This document shows, piece after piece, positions 1 through 10,934 of a DNA stretch of 45,571 bases. Source of the DNA: Candidatus Brocadia sp. (lineage in GTDB: Bacteria > Planctomycetota > Brocadiia > Brocadiales > Brocadiaceae); NCBI GenBank assembly GCA_021646415.1, contig SOEU01000024.1, positions 1 through 45,571 on the forward strand, in the 5' to 3' direction. A model generated the notes under the pieces. That model was not told where the DNA came from. It ran no database searches and saw nothing but the letters and a program-made list of their open reading frames with translations. A program made the position numbers and the translations under genes. Each line of letters opens with the position of its first letter. Within the stretch, counting starts at the first letter, position 1.

Positions 1-286
1 AGCACTTATCCTCAGAATTTGGTGGATCGCATACGTCCGGGTTGTTCGTACCGGGGTCGCAGATGTCGCTGCCACCTTTGCACTCATCCGTATCCCCCAC
101 GCTCGTTAAGCACTTATCCTCAGAATTTGGTGGATCGCATACGTCCGGGTTGTTCGTACCGGGGTCGCAGATGTCGCTGCCACCTTTGCACTCATCCGTA
201 TCCCCCACGCTCGTTAAGCACTTATCCTCAGAATTCGGTGGATCGCATACGTCCGGGTTGTTCGTACCAGGGTCGCAGATGTCGCT
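1..286. repeat. 108-bp direct tandem repeat, coding
   Basis: Units start at 1, 109 and 217. Units 1 and 2 are identical over 108 bp. Unit 3 differs by two substitutions in its first 70 bp and then departs from the repeat at about 287, at the N-terminal edge of the mature protein. The period is a multiple of three, so copy-number change keeps the minus-strand reading frame. Confidence 0.95.
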
Positions 287-436
287 GGGAGGGCAAACGT
301 CCGCAGCAGCGAAGGCTGACTTTACTCCAAAATTTACAAACTGGAAGTGACTCAACCCTGCCCCCACCATAATTGCACCGAGTTTCCTCAGGAAATCTCG
401 CCGGTCGAGTTTTGTACCTTCATTTTCCGATTTCAT
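1..436 (-). CDS. Tat-exported Cys-rich 36-residue repeat protein, candidate RiPP precursor (partial)
   Basis: The start is ATG at 436-434, preceded by a GGGGGTG ribosome-binding site; the frame stays open to the left window edge (145 codons), so the C-terminus is missing. Residues 11-18 read DRRDFLRK, a twin-arginine motif, followed by a hydrophobic stretch and a likely SAFA/A cleavage near residue 43. The mature part begins with a short Cys-Pro segment, then 36-residue units with Cys at 54, 64, 73 and 83 (spacings 9, 8, 9 and 6) and many Asp, Asn, Pro and Gly. The two leftmost 108-bp DNA units are identical, so the array is young and probably variable in copy number. It lies downstream of, and on the same strand as, a radical SAM/SPASM maturase. 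Its function is not known; a modified, exported repeat peptide is an inference. A plain Cys-rich surface protein is the alternative. Confidence 0.75.
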   Translation of the reverse strand, partial: MKSENEGTKLDRRDFLRKLGAIMVGAGLSHFQFVNFGVKSAFAAADVCPPSDICDPGTNNPDVCDPPNSEDKCLTSVGDTDECKGGSDICDPGTNNPDVCDPPNSEDKCLTSVGDTDECKGGSDICDPGTNNPDVCDPPNSEDKC

Positions 437-722
437 TGTTTTCACCCCCTTTTTTAAAGAAAAAGATTAAAAGAGATAAAAGTAGCTGACTCATATCATT
501 AAGTCGCCATCACGATCGGAAACCAATCTCACTCTGATTAGCTTCGCCAATACGTAATTTTTTGAATCACGAATGAATCCCACTTGTCATAACCCAAGTT
601 GGACAAGTTGCCATATGTCTTTTTTTATCTGGAGTGAAACTCATACGCAATACAGTGTAAATATCTGAAATCATACGTAACGACAAGGCACAAAACCCGC
701 AAAACAACCTAATACGACTTCG
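437..722. other. Intergenic spacer between maturase and repeat-protein gene
   Basis: This 286-bp spacer has no credible ORF. It holds a 7-bp inverted repeat (ACTTGTC at 582-588, GACAAGT at 602-608) that could be an operator or a weak terminator, and an A/T-rich run just before the repeat-protein start. I could not place a convincing promoter, so I cannot tell whether the repeat protein is co-transcribed with the maturase. Confidence 0.5.
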
Positions 723-2174
723 CTACCGCTGGATAGGAGTTGTGGTCAGAGGCCGAACGCTGTCATTCCCCACCAGTTTCTGAAAATAATCGGGATATCG
801 GCTGCGCAACGTATCATACAACCAGGCCCCCTGCTCGTACCATCTCAATAGTTCCTCACACCACCAGTCAAGGGGTGGTTGAAATGTGCCATCCTGATTT
901 GATACATGCCAGGGACAATATCCGCCACAGATGTTGATTGCCCAACAACTCTCGCACTTTCTCTTTGTCTCAAAATAGGCGTGCAGATAGTCGGCAAACT
1001 TTTTACTATCAATCCCAGTCGAGACATCGCCCAGGACATAGTTTTCCATACCTACGTAACGATGACATGGGTAAAGTCTTCCGTCAATTCCCACGGCTGT
1101 ACAACCACGTCCCACGCCGCATCGAATCCGTCGTTTTTGCTTATTGTGGATGTCCTGTACCACCTTGGCCCAGGGATTGAATCGAATTCGCTCTCCCCGA
1201 TCCAATTGCTTGAGCAGACGGTCCAGTAAATAATCTTCCTGGTCTTTAAGTATAGTATTTTCCTCGATACCAATGTCATACGGTCCCTGGCAGTATGACT
1301 TGCCGGTGCAATAACTCAATGCCACTCTGGTAAAACCGAAATCCTCCAAAAATTGGACGATCCCGATCTGATCTAGACATTGTTTGCTAATAGTGCACCG
1401 AACCGTTACCGAGCGGCGATGCTGCATCAACCGTTTGATATTGCGAGATGCCATTTCGAACGATCCTTGCCCGTTTTTGAATGGTCGTATTTGATCATGT
1501 ATCTCTTTGGAACCGTCCAAACTAACCATCAAGCCGAAGTTATACCTCTTGATGTAGCCTATGATCTCATCGTCCAGTAGCGTGGCGTTGGTCGTCATCG
1601 AGTAACGAACCTCTTTGCCCTGTTCATGGGCTAGCTGCTGGCTATAACGGATTACGCTGCGCATCACCGGCTTGTTAAGCAGCGGCTCGCCACCAAAAAA
1701 AGTGATATTGATTTGTCGAACTTTGTCTGCCCTTTGAAATACAAGATTTACAGCCTCTTTCGCAATTCCCAGAGACATAAGGCCATTGTTGAGCGCATTA
1801 TTCTCGCCGACATAACAGTAATGGCAACGTAGGTTACAGGCCTCAGCCAGACAAAGCTCAATACTATTAGCGGACATCCGCGTGAGTTGTCGGATGTAGG
1901 CTCCGTTTTCCTGGTGGTCGTAAACAGAACCCTGAAAGAACCCTTTTCGTTCTAACCAGTTCAACTCGCTCAGGACGGTCTGGGAAGTCTCCACACCATA
2001 TTTTTTAGACAGGTGACCAGAAATAGCGTCAAGAGAAGTCTCTGTCAGACGCAACGACAGCGCGTCGTAAGCGGGGTCGTCAATCCGTGCGACAGCACTC
2101 GACTCGATATCAAAAACATATTTATTGCCTCTAAACTGGAAAAGGTGATAGGATATCGTAGCCGTTTTTTTCAT
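723..2174 (-). CDS. Radical SAM/SPASM peptide maturase (SCIFF/QhpD-like)
   Basis: This 483-residue protein has three parts. Residues 8-82 form a small PqqD-like/RRE-type N-terminal domain with the pattern FRGNKYVFDIESSAVARIDD, much like the N-terminus of SCIFF maturases. The radical SAM core carries the cluster motif C113-x3-C117-x2-C120 and GGEP at 161-164. A C-terminal SPASM domain has Cys 352, 358, 370, 407, 410, 416, 420 and 439, enough for two auxiliary [4Fe-4S] clusters. Relatives cut SAM and join Cys sulfur to carbons of other residues (thioether cross-links) in peptides or small subunits. The start ATG has a GGAGTG site 8 nt upstream. The likely substrate is the Cys/Asp-rich repeat protein encoded downstream, which is an inference from position and composition. 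The family call is firm; the exact reaction is not. Confidence 0.88.
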   Translation of the reverse strand: MKKTATISYHLFQFRGNKYVFDIESSAVARIDDPAYDALSLRLTETSLDAISGHLSKKYGVETSQTVLSELNWLERKGFFQGSVYDHQENGAYIRQLTRMSANSIELCLAEACNLRCHYCYVGENNALNNGLMSLGIAKEAVNLVFQRADKVRQINITFFGGEPLLNKPVMRSVIRYSQQLAHEQGKEVRYSMTTNATLLDDEIIGYIKRYNFGLMVSLDGSKEIHDQIRPFKNGQGSFEMASRNIKRLMQHRRSVTVRCTISKQCLDQIGIVQFLEDFGFTRVALSYCTGKSYCQGPYDIGIEENTILKDQEDYLLDRLLKQLDRGERIRFNPWAKVVQDIHNKQKRRIRCGVGRGCTAVGIDGRLYPCHRYVGMENYVLGDVSTGIDSKKFADYLHAYFETKRKCESCWAINICGGYCPWHVSNQDGTFQPPLDWWCEELLRWYEQGAWLYDTLRSRYPDYFQKLVGNDSVRPLTTTPIQR

Positions 2175-2634: not shown

Positions 2635-3666
2635 CTACCTTGACCTTCGTGATGCATTATTCCCAGACCTCACCCTCACCTTTTCTGGACCATGCATGGT
2701 GCTCAGGCCGTTATAGTCCACATCCTCCAGCTTATAATAGTATGTGCCTTTGGCCGGTGGTGTGTCTACATAGCTGTAACTGGCTCCGGATACTGTATTG
2801 CCTTGGGCAGGGATGAGTGTGTCGTTAATCTTTTTGTAAGTACCATCCTTGAGCCTTGCGCGGTAGAGGTTGAAGCCGGCGTTGTCCACCTCCGTGGCCG
2901 TTTCCCAAGTCAGGATCACACTACCATCATCATTTGCTTTTGCGGCGAAGGATGTGAGTTCTACAGCATTGCCTTTTTCAGTCCATTTCTTTGTTAGTTT
3001 GTTTTTTGACTCAATAATTGCATCGGTGACCAGATCATAAGAAAATGCAGAAATAGTATCGGAACCTGGTTTACCCTCATTATCGTGATATGTAAACGTT
3101 GCTACGCCTTTATCGTTTGTATCACTTTCCACACGTAGATTGTTACTTCCATCGACAAGAAAAATTACAGTGACTTGCTTGGCCGGATTACCAGCGATAT
3201 CCACAACCTCTGCTTCAACAGTATGGTTAGTGTTTACGGTATTCTCATCCTTATCTTGAGATAAAGTAATGCCGGCATTTACCCACCTCTTTTCAACAAC
3301 ATTTGATTTTTCACCACTTATTAGTATTTTTGCCACTATACTATCTGTAGCCGCTATTTTTTTATTATCGTGGTAAGTAAAAGTTGCTTTTCCATCCTTA
3401 TCTATTCTGGCAAAGCCTGTTTGAACGTTATTTCCACTGACATCAAAACCCACACTGATTCCCTCCGAGGGCGGCTTACCACTGTCATCTGTCACTGTAG
3501 CAGTAACGGTATGATCAGTGTCTATAGTATTCGTGGCTGTTAAGGGTTCTAACTCAATACCTCCCCATGCCACGGGTGCAGGCAAATTGGCTAGGAAGAT
3601 TAAAAATCCGGTCATTAGCAACAACAGCCCTGTCTTTTTCATTGCTCTCCATTCAGTTTTTTTCAT
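2635..3666 (-). CDS. Secreted protein with two Ig-like repeats and a FnIII-like C-terminus
   Basis: This 343-residue protein starts with a Sec signal peptide (the hydrophobic core follows MKKTGLLLL). Two Ig-like (Big_1-type) modules follow, at about residues 36-125 and 130-225; both end in a conserved phrase like ATFTYHDN. The C-terminal 100 residues (ILTWETATEVDNAGFNLYRA onward) look like a fibronectin-III-type domain of the kind found at the ends of planctomycete surface proteins. No enzyme motif is visible. A role in the cell surface or extracellular matrix is inferred. GAGGGA lies 7 nt before the ATG at 3666; a second in-frame ATG at 3642 has its own GGAGAG and could be the true start. 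A GEMM-type riboswitch and terminator lie about 370 nt upstream on the same strand, which would fit control of a surface component by a cyclic dinucleotide. Confidence 0.8.
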   Translation of the reverse strand: MKKTEWRAMKKTGLLLLMTGFLIFLANLPAPVAWGGIELEPLTATNTIDTDHTVTATVTDDSGKPPSEGISVGFDVSGNNVQTGFARIDKDGKATFTYHDNKKIAATDSIVAKILISGEKSNVVEKRWVNAGITLSQDKDENTVNTNHTVEAEVVDIAGNPAKQVTVIFLVDGSNNLRVESDTNDKGVATFTYHDNEGKPGSDTISAFSYDLVTDAIIESKNKLTKKWTEKGNAVELTSFAAKANDDGSVILTWETATEVDNAGFNLYRARLKDGTYKKINDTLIPAQGNTVSGASYSYVDTPPAKGTYYYKLEDVDYNGLSTMHGPEKVRVRSGNNASRRSR

Positions 3667-4198: not shown

Positions 4199-4477
4199 TT
4201 ACAAATCTTTTTCCTCCACGATCCCTTTCGTTACAAAAACCTCCAACGTATGCAGGATATCTCCGGCAACATCATGGTTATCAGGGATAGAAAACCTTGT
4301 CCTGATCACCTGTTCCATCTCTTCTCGGGTATGCCCACCATCGCACAGTTCCCAGATGAGTTTCGCTGTGGGATTAAGGACATGTATTGCCTTTCCCTCG
4401 GTGCTATAAAGTAATGTCTCACGTCCCATATCCTGCACCAGAATGCCTTGTTTGCGGATCGGTTTTGTTGTATTCAC
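4199..4477 (-). CDS. PqqD-family peptide-recognition (RRE) protein
   Basis: This 92-residue protein starts with GTG at 4477 (AGGGG about 8 nt upstream). The body has the PqqD pattern: a beta-rich start (LVQDMGRETLLY), then the hallmark HVLNPTAKLIWELCDG, then two helices with HTREEMEQVIRTRF. PqqD proteins bind the leader of a ribosomal peptide and hand it to a radical SAM enzyme. No pqqA, pqqC or pqqE is seen nearby. The closest radical SAM/SPASM enzyme is 2 kb downstream on the same strand, and it seems to have its own N-terminal RRE-like domain. A second GEMM-like riboswitch lies about 850 nt upstream. The family is clear; partnership with the maturase is inferred. Confidence 0.85.
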   Translation of the reverse strand: MNTTKPIRKQGILVQDMGRETLLYSTEGKAIHVLNPTAKLIWELCDGGHTREEMEQVIRTRFSIPDNHDVAGDILHTLEVFVTKGIVEEKDL

Positions 4478-4555
4478 AGTCTATTACCCCTTGCGTTTTT
4501 TTGGAGACAACAGTCAAATCTTTATCAACGGTATTAAACAAACACAGTTTAAGAC

Positions 4556-4650
4556 CTCCCCTTAGCCCCCTCCTTCGCAAGGAGAAACAGGGAAGATTAT
4601 TTTTATTACCTCCCCCTAGCCCCCTCCTTCGTAAGGAGGGGAAGCGGGGT
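4556..4650. repeat. C-rich hairpin repeats (CCCCCTCCTTCG...AAGGAGGGG)
   Basis: Two adjacent copies carry AGCCCCCTCCTTCG followed by AAGGAG, at about 4566-4585 and 4618-4640. Related hairpins with CCCCTTTGATAAGGGGG or TTTGATAGAGGGG occur at 4720-4745, 4840-4855, 4890-4910 and 5250-5275, and a copy lies inside mtaB near 36046-36070. Confidence 0.7.
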
Positions 4651-4660
4651 TATAAGTTTG

Positions 4661-4716
4661 GTAGGTTGGGTGAAGCCTGTCCCGAGTTTGCCGAGGGGCG
4701 GAGCGCACCCAACAAC
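4661..4716. repeat. GTAGGTTGGGTG-type REP-like element, copy 2
   Basis: GTAGGTTGGGTGAAGC is followed by an extra G/C-rich segment and then GCGCACCCAACAA. Its normal trailing flank (TTTACTTCGTTTAACCC, about 4760) is split from it by a CCCCCTTTGATAAGGGGG hairpin, so one repeat appears inserted into another. Confidence 0.75.
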
Positions 4717-4969
4717 CCCCTGTATCCCCCTTTGATAAGGGGGACTTTAAAGATGACGGGTTTACTTCGTTTAACCCTATCCTTACTTTACTTTGTAAAC
4801 ACATTCAACAAAAGTGACAGACTACCTTATTTCCCCTTTAGAAAGAGGGGATTAAGGGGTGTGTATTCCCTGTTCTTGACACCCCCCCAACCCCTTTTGA
4901 TAGAGGGGAGAATTATCATCACTACTTTTGGAGAAACAGTTTAGTTTTTTGAAAGATGAGTTGTGCTTT

Positions 4970-5510: not shown

Positions 5511-5596
5511 AAGTTGAAAGTTGAAAGTTGAAAGTTGAAAGTTGAAAGTTGAAAGTTGAAAGTTGAAAGTTGAAAGTTGAAAGTTGAAAGTTGAAA
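5511..5596. repeat. Heptanucleotide tandem repeat (GTTGAAA)n
   Basis: About twelve head-to-tail copies of GTTGAAA fill 86 bp. The array ends about 35 bp before the 5' edge of riboswitch copy 2 on the minus strand, where its promoter should be. Seven-base units are prone to slippage and could make this promoter phase-variable. Confidence 0.95.
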
Positions 5597-5955
5597 AGCA
5601 GTCTAACATAAAATTATAAGATGTCAAGAATAAAATAATTATTTTATAGCTTCTGATACCCCGCCTTTATCGTTTCTCTACAAACAAATTCAAAACTGTT
5701 GTATTTTCTTTGAGTTCGTCGCCTTATTTTTTCCCCTTGTGTTGCGAATTGATATACTTTATAAAGATAACTGATATGAATCTGCTATGCTGCAACAGTC
5801 AAGCAGATAGGGCCGCAAGGTAAAAGAAAGAAGGGTCGCGAAAGAGGAAAGGTGAGGGGAGAAACAAAGATGATACAGTTTTTCAGTGAAGAGATAACTC
5901 ACGGGATATTCCGGGTGCGATTTGTGTATAATAAATAACAGTTCCAGTTTACGAA

Positions 5956-8868
5956 ATGAACATGATTGATATCAAACCCTACGACTGCCTGAAATCTTCA
6001 CAAGAGATCAGACAGTGGTATGAAAAGAATTACTATTTACTGTCATTGGCTGGCCTATGGTTAAAAGGTGGCGAGCCGAATACCATGGACCATGTCTTGT
6101 TTCATCAGGCAGAGCTGCGATTTCTCATCTGCAGGCTGTCAACGTATCGTGATGTAGCAGTTTCTATCTCTCACCCCCTGGTAGCTCAGATCGCACAGGA
6201 GGTGAAAGGTGTTTTTACAGACTTCTCCTTTCTCCCCCCACCGAAAGACCTGGAGGTAATGATTGGCTCCAAAATTCCCCTTTGGACAGGCACTACGACG
6301 AAAGAACCTCCTTGTGCATTCGATGTCCTTGGTATTAGTAACTCCTTTGTGCTGGAGTTACTGAATCTGCCAAAACTTTTGCATTTTTCAGGTATTCCGC
6401 TCTTCAAGAACGAACGCATGATACGTCCGGATATTCCACTGGTTGTGCTGGGGGGCGCCAGCTCGGCAGTTACTTCTGTACTGCACGGACCTCTCAAAGA
6501 ACAGGGATTTGGGAATAATTATGGGCTTGTAGACGCCGTGTTCGTTGGTGAAGGAGAATATTCTATAAAACAATTTTTGGAGGTGGTAAAAAACGGGAAG
6601 GCACATGGGTTGAGCAAAACTGAGATTCTCAGTGCATGTCACGGGAAGGTTGATGGATTCTATGAACCGGATAAATACGAACATCGGTATAAAGTGGTTG
6701 TACAGAATCCCGCAGAAATACAAACGATAACAGAAAAAATATACAGCGATGAAGTTAACAATCTCCTTTCAGATAAAGGTGTTTTGGCAGAGATTACGCC
6801 AAAAGAACCGTACGTGCCATATCCCGTAAAAAGCGCAACTATATACAATCTTGATCAGGTGAGGACGTTAGAATCGGGTCCTCTCTGGTATGAAACAGAA
6901 AGTCTCGGTATGGGAAGTTTGCAAATCAGTAACGGATGCCCATGCTTTTGTGCCTTTTGTGCCGAAAGCTGGGAGAGAAAACCCTATCGGGAACGGTCAT
7001 TATCAAAGCTTTTAGAAGCGCTGAAAGCAGCAAAGGCACAGCAAGGGCTGGAGAGCGTAAATCTCCTGAGTTTTAACTTCAATACCCATACTGAACTGTA
7101 TCCCATGATCTTATCCTTTTATAGGGAAATGGCCAGCATCAGCCTCAAGAGCCAGCGGTTTGATCTGTTGTCTGCCGACCGGTTCCTTGCAGAGGTACAA
7201 CAGATAATCGGAAAGACAACGGTTAGTTGCGGGATGGAAGGTATCAGCGAGCGGTTGAGACGATACCTGCACAAGAACCTTACCGAAGAACAAATCTATA
7301 AGGCCTGTGAATTTTTGTTTGAAAGGGGTGCCAGGGAACTCAAGATTTTTTTAATCTGCACGGGATTGGAACAAGCGGAAGACTTTGAGGAATTCGGAAG
7401 ATTTGTAAAGCGTCTGGGGGACTTGAAAAGTATGTCAGATAGCAGTGTCCGCATCGTTTTTAGCATGACGCCCCTTTATTATCCCCCGCATACACCATTG
7501 CAATATCACGAGTGTGTAACAGCCCTTGACGATAAAAAGCAGATACGAAGGGAAATTGAACGTATCTGTAAATTTAACGGCATGGAATTCCGGGAAAGCG
7601 CTTCTTATGAAGAAATATGGCTGACACAATTACTGGCAATGGGCGATAGACGGTTAACCCCTGCCCTCGTACGCTCATCGATTATGGATGGATTTGTTTA
7701 TTATAACACTGTGCCAAAACAAATACTCAGGAATTGGCGTAATTATTTAATGGAATTAGGGTTATCCGAAGAAAATTACTTTCGTGCAAAGGGGAAAAAT
7801 CAGGTCTTTCCCTGGGACGATATCGATTTGGGCATTACAAAGAAATTTTTGTGGGAAGAATACGAGCGTTCAATCTATTTTACCGAGCGTGAGTACTGCC
7901 TGGGTCGTCCACAGATCGAAGCACAATGCCTGGGATGCGGGGCTTGCCCAACGGCCGCTCATAAGAAAAAGATTACACACCACAAAATTTCTCAACCCTT
8001 TCTCATGGAAGACATTCGCCGGATTGCTGACAGGAAACGAAACCCCCTCATACTACGAGTCGTTGTGGAGATCGAACCCGCCCTGCGTTTAGCCCAAAAA
8101 CAATTTATTGGAGTGGCCATTGCACGCGCCCTTATGCTTGCCATGCCTGAAATTGTACCTTATTATCAGGCATTGTCTGCTCATGCAAGAGATTTTGGTG
8201 GAGAGAAGGTCACTGCTGATTTTACACATGGTATTAATGTTTATCACCTGGCGTTTTTATCAGACGACAGAACAAAAGAACTCTTGAATAGTGAGGCCCT
8301 TCCCCGAAAACTCAATAGTATACAAGCATATTGCCGCGGATTCAGGATTAAGGAATTTGTTTTAGGTCCCGGTGATATACCGGATGTGCACTATATCCTC
8401 TACAGGATGTGTCTCGCGAAAGAATTTACGGCGTCTTTTCTGCAACAAAAACTGGGAGAATATCTTCACGCACATTATGTTAAGCATACGCTATTAAAGA
8501 GGGATGGGCAGGCGATATTCAAGGTAGATACAAAATATAAAAAGAATGCCGTTGTCCTTTATGCGCGGATTTACAAAACCCAACAAGTGAAAGAATCAGA
8601 TGCCGAATTTTCCATTTTCATGGTGGCATCAAAACGTTTTAATATCCAGGAATTTTTAATGACCTGCTACGGATTCGGGAGGAAAAAGGAAATCGTCTGT
8701 ACAAAGATAGAAGCCCTGGGATACTATGGAAAAAATCCTGTTTTGCAAAATGTTGAACGATGCGAATCATGCAATGACTTTATCAGTGAAACATTTCTCT
8801 TTGGTCTGCCCTTAGGAGAACACCAATGCCTTGTTTGCAGCATAAATACGGGTATGATTGATGTTTAG
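5956..8868 (+). CDS. Large B12-binding-like radical SAM protein of unknown function
   Basis: This 970-residue protein begins with a Rossmann-like region resembling B12-binding domains of radical SAM proteins: FDVLGISNSFVLELLNL, GIPLFKNER, then VVLGGASS (163-170) and DAVFVGEGE (193-201). The cobalamin-ligating DxHxxG is not seen. The radical SAM motif is C328-x3-C332-x2-C335, with an extra Cys at 330. A CLGCGACP cluster follows in the second half, and the last 40 residues have two CxxC-type pairs (CESC, CLVC), suggesting further Fe-S or Zn sites. The layout recalls TIGR03960-type proteins with a long C-terminal extension. The start has no strong ribosome-binding site; ATG two codons later is possible. 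It stands alone between minus-strand genes, so context gives no pathway. Confidence 0.75.
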   Translation: MNMIDIKPYDCLKSSQEIRQWYEKNYYLLSLAGLWLKGGEPNTMDHVLFHQAELRFLICRLSTYRDVAVSISHPLVAQIAQEVKGVFTDFSFLPPPKDLEVMIGSKIPLWTGTTTKEPPCAFDVLGISNSFVLELLNLPKLLHFSGIPLFKNERMIRPDIPLVVLGGASSAVTSVLHGPLKEQGFGNNYGLVDAVFVGEGEYSIKQFLEVVKNGKAHGLSKTEILSACHGKVDGFYEPDKYEHRYKVVVQNPAEIQTITEKIYSDEVNNLLSDKGVLAEITPKEPYVPYPVKSATIYNLDQVRTLESGPLWYETESLGMGSLQISNGCPCFCAFCAESWERKPYRERSLSKLLEALKAAKAQQGLESVNLLSFNFNTHTELYPMILSFYREMASISLKSQRFDLLSADRFLAEVQQIIGKTTVSCGMEGISERLRRYLHKNLTEEQIYKACEFLFERGARELKIFLICTGLEQAEDFEEFGRFVKRLGDLKSMSDSSVRIVFSMTPLYYPPHTPLQYHECVTALDDKKQIRREIERICKFNGMEFRESASYEEIWLTQLLAMGDRRLTPALVRSSIMDGFVYYNTVPKQILRNWRNYLMELGLSEENYFRAKGKNQVFPWDDIDLGITKKFLWEEYERSIYFTEREYCLGRPQIEAQCLGCGACPTAAHKKKITHHKISQPFLMEDIRRIADRKRNPLILRVVVEIEPALRLAQKQFIGVAIARALMLAMPEIVPYYQALSAHARDFGGEKVTADFTHGINVYHLAFLSDDRTKELLNSEALPRKLNSIQAYCRGFRIKEFVLGPGDIPDVHYILYRMCLAKEFTASFLQQKLGEYLHAHYVKHTLLKRDGQAIFKVDTKYKKNAVVLYARIYKTQQVKESDAEFSIFMVASKRFNIQEFLMTCYGFGRKKEIVCTKIEALGYYGKNPVLQNVERCESCNDFISETFLFGLPLGEHQCLVCSINTGMIDV

Positions 8869-8927: not shown

Positions 8928-10934
8928 TTAGCCATGGTATTTTTTTGACTTATTATAAAAACCTTTAAATTTTCTCAAAAACCTTATGAGAACGAAGGTG
9001 ACTGCAAGACCCATGATAGTGGCTATAGTCACTGGGCTGGTACCAAATAACCAGGCAAGGACGTTAATGAGGCCGGATAGGAATGCAATGGGGTGGGTGA
9101 GAAAGGTGAGCAGGATGGATGCAACCAGGCCATATTTGATAAACTTTACACATTTTGCAAATGTTTTGGGCGAGAGAAATCGCATTACCAGGAGGCCAGC
9201 CTTCCCTTTGCTGGCAAGCTGAAGACCATCATCTCCGTACATACCAACATACTTAATGACATCGTCTCCGTGCCTTTTCGCCATTCGGATTACATCATGA
9301 CCATATTTTTCAATAACTTTTACACCGCTTGAACCGTATCTGGATATATACAGAATGATGTCATCCCCATAGAGGGCTGATAATTTGATAACATTGTCAC
9401 CATAAATGGAGCTTAAAAGCACAACGTCTTTGCCATACTTCTGAATAACCCTAAGGCCGTCGTTACCATAGAGCGCAATGTATTTGATCACATCATCACC
9501 ATATCGGCGTGCCAGGGATAGGAGATCATCCCCATATTGTTCAATTGCTTTCCCAGCATCGGCGCCATATTGAGAAACGTATCGAACCACATCATCTCCA
9601 TATTGCTGTGAGAGGGTAAGGATTTTGCCGTCCGTTACCTTCAGCGCCTTGATGCCATCGTCTCCGTGTTTTGCCACAAATGGAATGACGTCATCGCCAT
9701 AGGCCGTTACGAGGTCTTCGGTTACATGGACAAGGCCATTGAACCCTTTTGTGGTCTTTGCAAAACGTGCCCCTTTTACCGCAAGTTTTGCCCCCCTGGA
9801 TATCCCGCTACCAATAGGGACAAGTCCCAGGATATCCAGTCCTGCAAACAACTTGTCCTGTAAGCTGATGTCTTCCTGCCGAATTCTTTTCCGGCTGACC
9901 TTTTCGGCATCGGAAATAAAGAAATTCCTTAATTTGTTCGTAATGGTGGTAATGGCTTCTTCCCTGACGTTATTGATATCGAGGATTTCAAACCGATCCA
10001 TGAAATCGTTTCCCAACTCAAAAATAAGACGAATGGCCCTACTGGCATTTTCACGTTGTACGGTTGCATCTCCTTGCGTATTTGCGGTAGATGTGCCTGT
10101 GCCATACCACCAGGTTGATATCCATTCGTAGGCGCTTGTTGTCTTCAGGTAGTTGTATAACTGGCTGTTAAAATCTTTATTGCTATAAAAAAGATAAATG
10201 ATGGGAATGGTCTGTTTATGCCCGTACGTTTTAATTATCTGATAAAAGGTATCATCATCCATGAAAAGATTGAATAAAGTCTTTGCCTTTTCCCCGTATT
10301 CCTTTACGGCCAGGAGGCCGTCGTCCTGGAATTTCATGACAATGTTTAATACGTCTTTGTCGTAAAGCCGCGCAAAGGCGATTCCATGTTTTCGTGCCAG
10401 GGGAAAAACAATGTCCCCCTTTTCATTGGCAAGGTTAATGAGCTCAATGCCCTTGTCTTTATCCTCGCTTATACGGAAGAAGTTTTCGGGGTTATTAGCA
10501 ATATATTTCATCCCTTCCTCTCCAAAGTTTTTGTAAAATTCAGCAAGGATTTTGGGTGAGAATATGGGGTAATTATTTGTGTTGCTACCAGAATTGTTAT
10601 AAAGGTGAAAGATGTCTCTATAATCCAGGAGTGGAAACAGGTCGGCCATTTCCCTGCCATATTTTTCCAGGAGTGCAAGCCCATCGATTTTATACTCTTT
10701 CAAAAATTCAAGGGCAAACGTGCCGTATTGCTGGTAGAGTCGTTCAGCATTATCACCAAATTGTCCAAACACGTCTTTATAGATGGTGCAGATAGCATCG
10801 ACGTGGTATATTGGGGCATTTGATACTGTTGTTGAGGCACTCTCTGTGGATTGAGAACCTGCGTTTTGTGGTGACAAAAAAGTTATGTGACTTACCAAGA
10901 GCAGAATAAAAGATATGAAAAGCTTTTTATTCAT
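8928..10934 (-). CDS. Exported, membrane-anchored protein with fifteen 11-residue YGDD repeats
   Basis: This 668-residue protein starts with a signal peptide or anchor (hydrophobic residues 5-20). Residues 412-576 are fifteen undecapeptides in perfect register, each starting Tyr/His-Gly-Asp-Asp (for example YGDDVIKYIAL), with Y or H at 412, 423, 445 and every 11 residues on to 566 (Thr at 434). Weaker units with the same spacing occur near 59-102 and 191-223. Eleven residues fit three helical turns, so I expect a long amphipathic helical or solenoid array. Two membrane segments follow (about 604-628 and 632-651), then a basic tail. No family or catalytic motif is recognised. A structural or envelope role is possible but unproven. 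Confidence 0.75.
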   Translation of the reverse strand: MNKKLFISFILLLVSHITFLSPQNAGSQSTESASTTVSNAPIYHVDAICTIYKDVFGQFGDNAERLYQQYGTFALEFLKEYKIDGLALLEKYGREMADLFPLLDYRDIFHLYNNSGSNTNNYPIFSPKILAEFYKNFGEEGMKYIANNPENFFRISEDKDKGIELINLANEKGDIVFPLARKHGIAFARLYDKDVLNIVMKFQDDGLLAVKEYGEKAKTLFNLFMDDDTFYQIIKTYGHKQTIPIIYLFYSNKDFNSQLYNYLKTTSAYEWISTWWYGTGTSTANTQGDATVQRENASRAIRLIFELGNDFMDRFEILDINNVREEAITTITNKLRNFFISDAEKVSRKRIRQEDISLQDKLFAGLDILGLVPIGSGISRGAKLAVKGARFAKTTKGFNGLVHVTEDLVTAYGDDVIPFVAKHGDDGIKALKVTDGKILTLSQQYGDDVVRYVSQYGADAGKAIEQYGDDLLSLARRYGDDVIKYIALYGNDGLRVIQKYGKDVVLLSSIYGDNVIKLSALYGDDIILYISRYGSSGVKVIEKYGHDVIRMAKRHGDDVIKYVGMYGDDGLQLASKGKAGLLVMRFLSPKTFAKCVKFIKYGLVASILLTFLTHPIAFLSGLINVLAWLFGTSPVTIATIMGLAVTFVLIRFLRKFKGFYNKSKKYHG

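Follow-up and report, generated by a model that had tools for sequence, protein, structure and literature searches.

The window, a stretch of 45,571 nucleotides from Candidatus Brocadia sp. (contig SOEU01000024.1 of assembly GCA_021646415.1, positions 1-45,571 of the forward strand), opens with a pair of minus-strand genes at positions 1-2174. The first is the 5′ part of a Tat-type Cys/Asp repeat protein gene (2-436, minus strand), which is the proposed substrate and was delimited from its open reading frame and translation, its overlap with a second contig and its partners in the family. Within the window, the reading frame runs for 145 codons from an ATG (436 to 2), and a sequence judged to be a good ribosome-binding site, AGGGGGTG, was read at 443-450 on the same strand. 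The encoded N-terminus (308-436, minus strand) has the predicted features of a Tat signal, including the twin-arginine motif DRRDFLRK, a hydrophobic stretch with the segment LSHFQFV and an AFA-A signal peptidase site, and is also the proposed RiPP leader; its match to TIGR01409 is weak (15.7 bits, cut-off 16.7). The near-identical 36-residue units described in the first-pass annotation were recovered using Tandem Repeats Finder as a 108-bp tandem repeat of 2.7 copies (1-287, minus strand; 98% matches), with the unit sequence SDICDPGTNNPDVCDPPNSEDKCLTSVGDTDECKGG. Each unit carries four D-x-C motifs, and each of the 12 Cys encoded within the window has Asp at position -2. A comparison of the substrate with NCBIfam and Pfam identified no family above cut-off, and a plasmid DNA search identified no relatives.

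The repeat gene is truncated by the contig end. Another contig of this genome, C9, also terminates in the repeat, overlapping the window by 255 bp at 98%, and there the array leads into a C-terminal FnIII-like domain (G000:C9, L008:19392-19982, minus strand). Because both contigs end inside the array, the plain reading is that one gene was split by the assembly, and C24 and C9 thus appear to carry a single gene. The minimal join would contain about 5 repeat units and 20 Cys, and the true copy number may differ.

The next gene upstream of the repeat gene, also on the minus strand, encodes a radical SAM/SPASM maturase of 483 residues (723-2174), which was identified by Pfam (Radical_SAM, 1.4e-17), NCBIfam and similarity to the structure of CteB (PDB 5wgg, 9e-56), in agreement with the enzyme originally annotated here. 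The CX3CX2C radical SAM cluster motif (C113, C117 and C120; 1815-1838, minus strand) and the SPASM domain (C352, C370, C407, C410, C416, C420 and C439, with YPCHR; 858-1121, minus strand) are invariant among eight aligned maturases, and the CHR motif is common to the maturase and QhpD, whereas CteB has CHQ. Residues 7-426 align with CteB across the RRE, radical SAM and SPASM regions. The RRE-like domain at residues 9-76 (1947-2150, minus strand) was assigned from this alignment and from an AlphaFold2 model that was built from two sequences and is poor overall (mean pLDDT 51); these residues were predicted to form three strands and three helices, which is the topology of an RRE, and their ten-residue blocks have pLDDT values of about 55 to 84.

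The top NCBIfam matches of the maturase were PapB (5e-86) and QhpD (3e-84), and all of the PapB, QhpD, SCIFF and nif11 models scored it below cut-off. For the PapB model (NF047865), the window maturase reached 288.8 bits and five scanned members of its clade reached 217-259, against a cut-off of 340; for the QhpD model (TIGR03906), it reached 283.3 bits against a cut-off of 453, compared with 500-532 for the true QhpD homologues in the phylum; and for the SCIFF model (TIGR03974), it reached 247 bits against 425. The SCIFF/QhpD likeness that was first proposed holds at the family level and fails at every model cut-off. In the enzyme tree, the window maturase groups with Akkermansia-side enzymes rather than with those of its own phylum (support 99/98), which suggests that it was acquired by horizontal gain. 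The maturase was not found in 10 congeners (E up to 1e-60), and the Tat repeat protein was not found in 58 relatives.

On C9, the repeat gene is followed by genes for an HprK-related kinase, a PorU-like C25 peptidase, an S26-type signal peptidase and a nucleotidyltransferase, and in three congeners an FnIII-like-domain protein is encoded upstream of the same four genes in the same order. At the two of these loci that were read, the congener FnIII-like proteins have ordinary N-termini in which the twin Arg is absent. The HprK/C25/S26/NTP_transf_5 module is syntenic within the genus (L008:11247-18968, L059, L060 and L061) and lies behind genes for proteins whose C-terminal FnIII-like domains are near-identical; it could serve in sorting or in anchoring proteins at the surface. 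In the window, an Ig-like (Big_1) protein identified by Pfam (2635-3666, minus strand), which belongs to the same locus and lies outside the enzyme-substrate pair, ends in an FnIII-like domain nearly identical to that of the repeat protein, and this shared domain also precedes HprK in the congeners. Given its occurrence on neighbors of the PorU-like C25 peptidase, the FnIII-like domain may sort the repeat protein to the cell surface. A PqqD-like protein is encoded further upstream (4199-4477, minus strand; Pfam PqqD, 3.6e-10); its link to the pair is unproven, and the maturase carries its own RRE-like domain.

The pair recurs in about twenty other loci in at least two phyla. An intact same-strand Cys/Asp partner with a Tat-type leader adjoins 19 of the 21 maturase homologues in two enzyme clades. 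A contig scan of genomes with one protein yielded a single close enzyme (38%), from an Akkermansia assembly; directly behind it lies a partner of 348 residues, in which 29 of the 31 Cys that follow the leader lie in D-x-C. A search of the phylum of the window identified homologues that adjoin Tat-type proteins with D-x-x-C, and each of the seven enzymes detected by a profile search of one class has a Tat neighbor of the D-x-x-C type; two D-x-C proteins and three small proteins with four Cys came from further searches of the Akkermansia side. Among the ORFs of 376 kb of fetched DNA, which comprises stretches mostly picked around the enzymes, every ORF that has eight or more Cys and carries the motif at no fewer than half of these is a partner or an adjacent second copy.

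The two exceptions among the 21 homologues are L030, in which an SRRAFISK leader is cut short beside an IS110-like transposase, and L031, which has an atypical small peptide. In L030 (7300-8400, minus strand), the short SRRAFISK-leader ORF lies behind the maturase and is followed by the transposase, and it is probably a broken substrate gene. Outside the two clades, L018 and L021 encode QhpD above the cut-off, L014 falls just below it and has a QhpC-like neighbor, and the L009 enzyme is closest to the nif11 maturases. L009, from another genus of the same family as the window, encodes a nif11-type leader peptide beside its maturase (898-1200, minus strand). Partnerless homologues were considered as counter-examples and rejected, as NCBIfam assigned the scanned ones to QhpD or nif11, and no Cys/Asp Tat-type partner was identified beside the scanned QhpD and nif11 homologues. 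The concern that the two genes would be found apart in most genomes was not borne out in the two enzyme clades.

Several further features were observed at these loci. L036 contains a second D-x-x-C gene in tandem (5681-6519, minus strand), whose twin-Arg leader, GRRDFLRGVLGLGLANGP, is out of frame with the Cys part and which may be frameshifted. A related gene of approximately 410-450 codons with repeats that resemble YD/RHS by eye lies upstream of the maturase in L024 (6645-7937), L046, L048, L049 and L050, and genes resembling alpha/beta-hydrolases follow the substrate gene in Akkermansia-side loci; both kinds of gene may be part of the system in the Akkermansia-side loci.

The conserved trait of the family is an Asp at a fixed spacing before Cys and not the 36-residue repeat, the period of which is particular to the genome of the window; the pairing of the maturase with a Tat-type gene foreseen in the first-pass annotation was upheld, and the 36-residue period was not. 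Tandem DNA repeats were also rejected as a family trait, since the Akkermansia locus is without any. The D-x-C spacing is found in the window protein and three Verrucomicrobiota-side relatives, and the D-x-x-C spacing in 12 relatives from the same phylum as the window. In 14 of 15 precursors, the occurrence of Asp at the family spacing exceeded that in all 2,000 shuffled sequences, the exception being of the four-Cys type. When the motif labels were placed on the enzyme tree, six changes were needed, compared with a minimum of five and a mean of 15.7 for shuffled labels, none of 200 shuffles being as low. This agreement between spacing and enzyme phylogeny is taken as the strongest evidence that the maturase acts on the Cys/Asp protein. 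The number of Cys per precursor ranges from 4 to about 35. The leaders are also conserved in part: 17 of 18 contain the twin Arg, RG replaces RR in the Akkermansia leader, and those of the D-x-C and four-Cys groups have a common segment in the hydrophobic part (SHFQFV, SNFTLL, SHFTLL, TRFTLL and ANFALV), which is odd for a signal peptide and is a candidate RRE site.

These observations are best read as indicating an enzyme and its substrate, in which Cys-Asp thioethers would be formed in the cytoplasm by a QhpD/PapB-like enzyme with a putative RRE before export by Tat, a reading given a probability of about two in three. The RRE-like domain of the maturase would bind the N-terminal leader of the substrate, and the Cys thiols would be joined to Asp side chains as thioethers in the reducing cytoplasm, once per Cys, giving many rings per chain (the minimal join has 20 Cys). 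Most likely each Cys would be paired with an Asp that follows it by 4-9 residues, the arrangement of QhpC, and the rings would then be chained by short D-x-C links. The compact modified product would then cross the membrane by Tat, which exports folded proteins, and if it leaves by this route, the signal peptide would double as the RiPP leader. In the genome of the window, the FnIII-like C-terminal domain would probably help to locate the protein on the cell surface. Both genes, the motif, their co-occurrence and the agreement of motif spacing with the enzyme tree are observed, whereas the thioether chemistry, the residues joined, the modification before export and the surface location are what we infer. 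The broader proposal, that the family comprises exported structural proteins folded as 4 to about 35 Cys-Asp rings, made before Tat and with the Tat signal as RiPP leader, is considered to have an even chance of being correct.

Several characterized systems resemble this pair in part. Annotated QhpD is similar to the maturase over its full length (28-29%) and has the same CHR motif, and the chemistry expected here, joining Cys to Asp/Glu with several rings per chain, is that of QhpD and QhpC; the maturase nevertheless lies on a separate tree branch and below the QhpD cut-off. QhpC is modified in the cytoplasm before export, its 28-residue leader is cut by QhpE, and it is exported by the ABC transporter QhpF (PMC7876137). 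Unlike the proteins described here, which have a Tat-type leader and 4 to about 35 Cys, QhpC is short, and neither ORF reading nor family scans of the window and L008 identified qhpA, qhpB or qhpC neighbors. PapB, which acts on PapA (freyrasin, a ranthipeptide), is the best NCBIfam match, and its substrate likewise has many Cys-Asp pairs; however, PapA is a short peptide in which CX3D occurs six times, and PapB leaves D-X3-C, including the reversed DSANCA order, unprocessed (PMC9413430). CX3D is not the spacing observed here, as the Cys-to-Asp distance is mostly 4-9 in the D-x-C group. CteB has the closest solved structure by sequence, but SCIFF substrates are small and contain six Cys, and the acceptor in CteA is a Thr (Cys32-Thr34; PMC8326336). 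In streptococcal NxxcA, NxxcB links Cys23 to Asn20 (PMC8326336), so that, at the level of the substrate, the acceptor lies a fixed short distance upstream of Cys as in D-x-x-C, although NxxcA is a short peptide with one ring, an Asn acceptor and no Tat signal. The nif11-like maturases fall in the same branch region of the enzyme superfamily (E 1e-78) and include an enzyme from the same family as the window (L009), but their partner is a Nif11/NHLP-type leader peptide rather than a Tat Cys/Asp protein. The arrangement of a radical SAM/SPASM maturase gene beside a Cys-rich precursor gene is shared with the ranthipeptides.

With regard to which residues would be joined, pairing of each Cys with a downstream Asp, the polarity of QhpC, is suggested by the spacings of the family, and the chances for and against it are judged to be about equal. 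The rings of QhpC span offsets of 6-9 residues in crystal structures. These offsets are consistent with the QhpC sequence inspected and match the Cys-to-Asp offsets found here. Downstream pairing is favored because the four-Cys relatives keep the Cys-to-Asp distance and vary the Asp-to-Cys distance: G748, G1276 and G1312 each have four Cys with Asp at +7, +8, +9 and +8, and the gaps between an Asp and the Cys that follows are 2/8/7 in G748 and 2/10/7 in G1312. Furthermore, the upstream Asp is missing at the first Cys in 7 of 15 proteins, compared with 13 of the 190 Cys that come later (Fisher 1e-4, a generous value given that related proteins were each counted singly), and several arrays terminate in an Asp without Cys. 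The alternative, an NxxC-like ring closed between each Cys and the Asp at -2 (D-x-C) or -3 (D-x-x-C), was the initial model and is now regarded as doubtful. It draws on the Asp-to-Cys spacing, which is fixed in 14 of 15 proteins with variable loops between, and on NxxC itself, a beta-thioether of such polarity and spacing (PMC8326336; PMC13361665), and the D-x-x-C clade, in which the Asp-to-Cys distance is fixed and the Cys-to-Asp distance ranges from 2 to 24, fits it better; by contrast, G748 has the motif at only one of its four Cys, PapB rejects D-X3-C (PMC9413430), and Cys without an upstream Asp often begin the arrays as Asp without Cys often end them. The proteins with four Cys, together with the ends of the arrays, led to downstream pairing being preferred over the in-motif ring.

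It is improbable that the maturase performs another reaction on the same protein, such as alpha-carbon thioether formation, epimerization or a bond to a different residue; the diversity of SPASM enzymes and the scores below the PapB, QhpD, SCIFF and nif11 cut-offs leave room for this, but the nearest enzyme families are all Cys-thioether formers, and the conserved substrate pair of Asp and Cys matches what QhpD and PapB use as acceptor and donor. Also improbable is an unmodified secreted protein that, once exported, binds metal or forms disulfides while the enzyme targets something else nearby. Repeats rich in Asp and Cys can bind cations, and other candidate peptides may lie near the enzyme, but disulfides would leave the Asp at fixed spacing from nearly every Cys unexplained, and both the adjacency in 19 of 21 loci and the agreement of motif spacing with the enzyme tree speak against it.

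With the pair read as enzyme and Cys-Asp-linked substrate, it looks like an undescribed system that is a variant of ranthipeptide/QhpD-type maturation: the QhpD and PapB cut-offs, the qhp neighbors and CX3D are unmatched, and the expected chemistry is that of ranthipeptides and QhpD. No description of such a pair or of a modify-then-Tat route was found in the open-access literature on radical SAM RiPPs and Tat, which is weak evidence of novelty. To our knowledge, the characterized thioether-forming radical SAM enzymes have only short peptides or QhpC as substrates. If the reading is correct, thioether chemistry would be extended to long repeat proteins and tied to Tat, and thioether rings could fold such a protein without disulfides. 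In addition, D-x-C and D-x-x-C, with their matching enzyme clades, would offer a natural test of the choice of acceptor and ring size.

Other repeated sequences were noted in this genome. The HprK-related kinase on C9 (L008:17577-18968) contains approximately 65 extra residues at about 56-120 (PLLPPFARERG...PLIPPFARGDTGG) that are absent in the congener protein of L059; because similar text recurs in ORFs at positions 4387-4944 of the window, the extra segment resembles a dispersed repeat that entered the gene in frame. A perfect tandem repeat of AAGTTGA (12.3 copies) occupies positions 5511-5596 of the window, and a 668-residue protein with many degenerate YGDDV-type repeats and without a significant family match is encoded at 8928-10934 on the minus strand.
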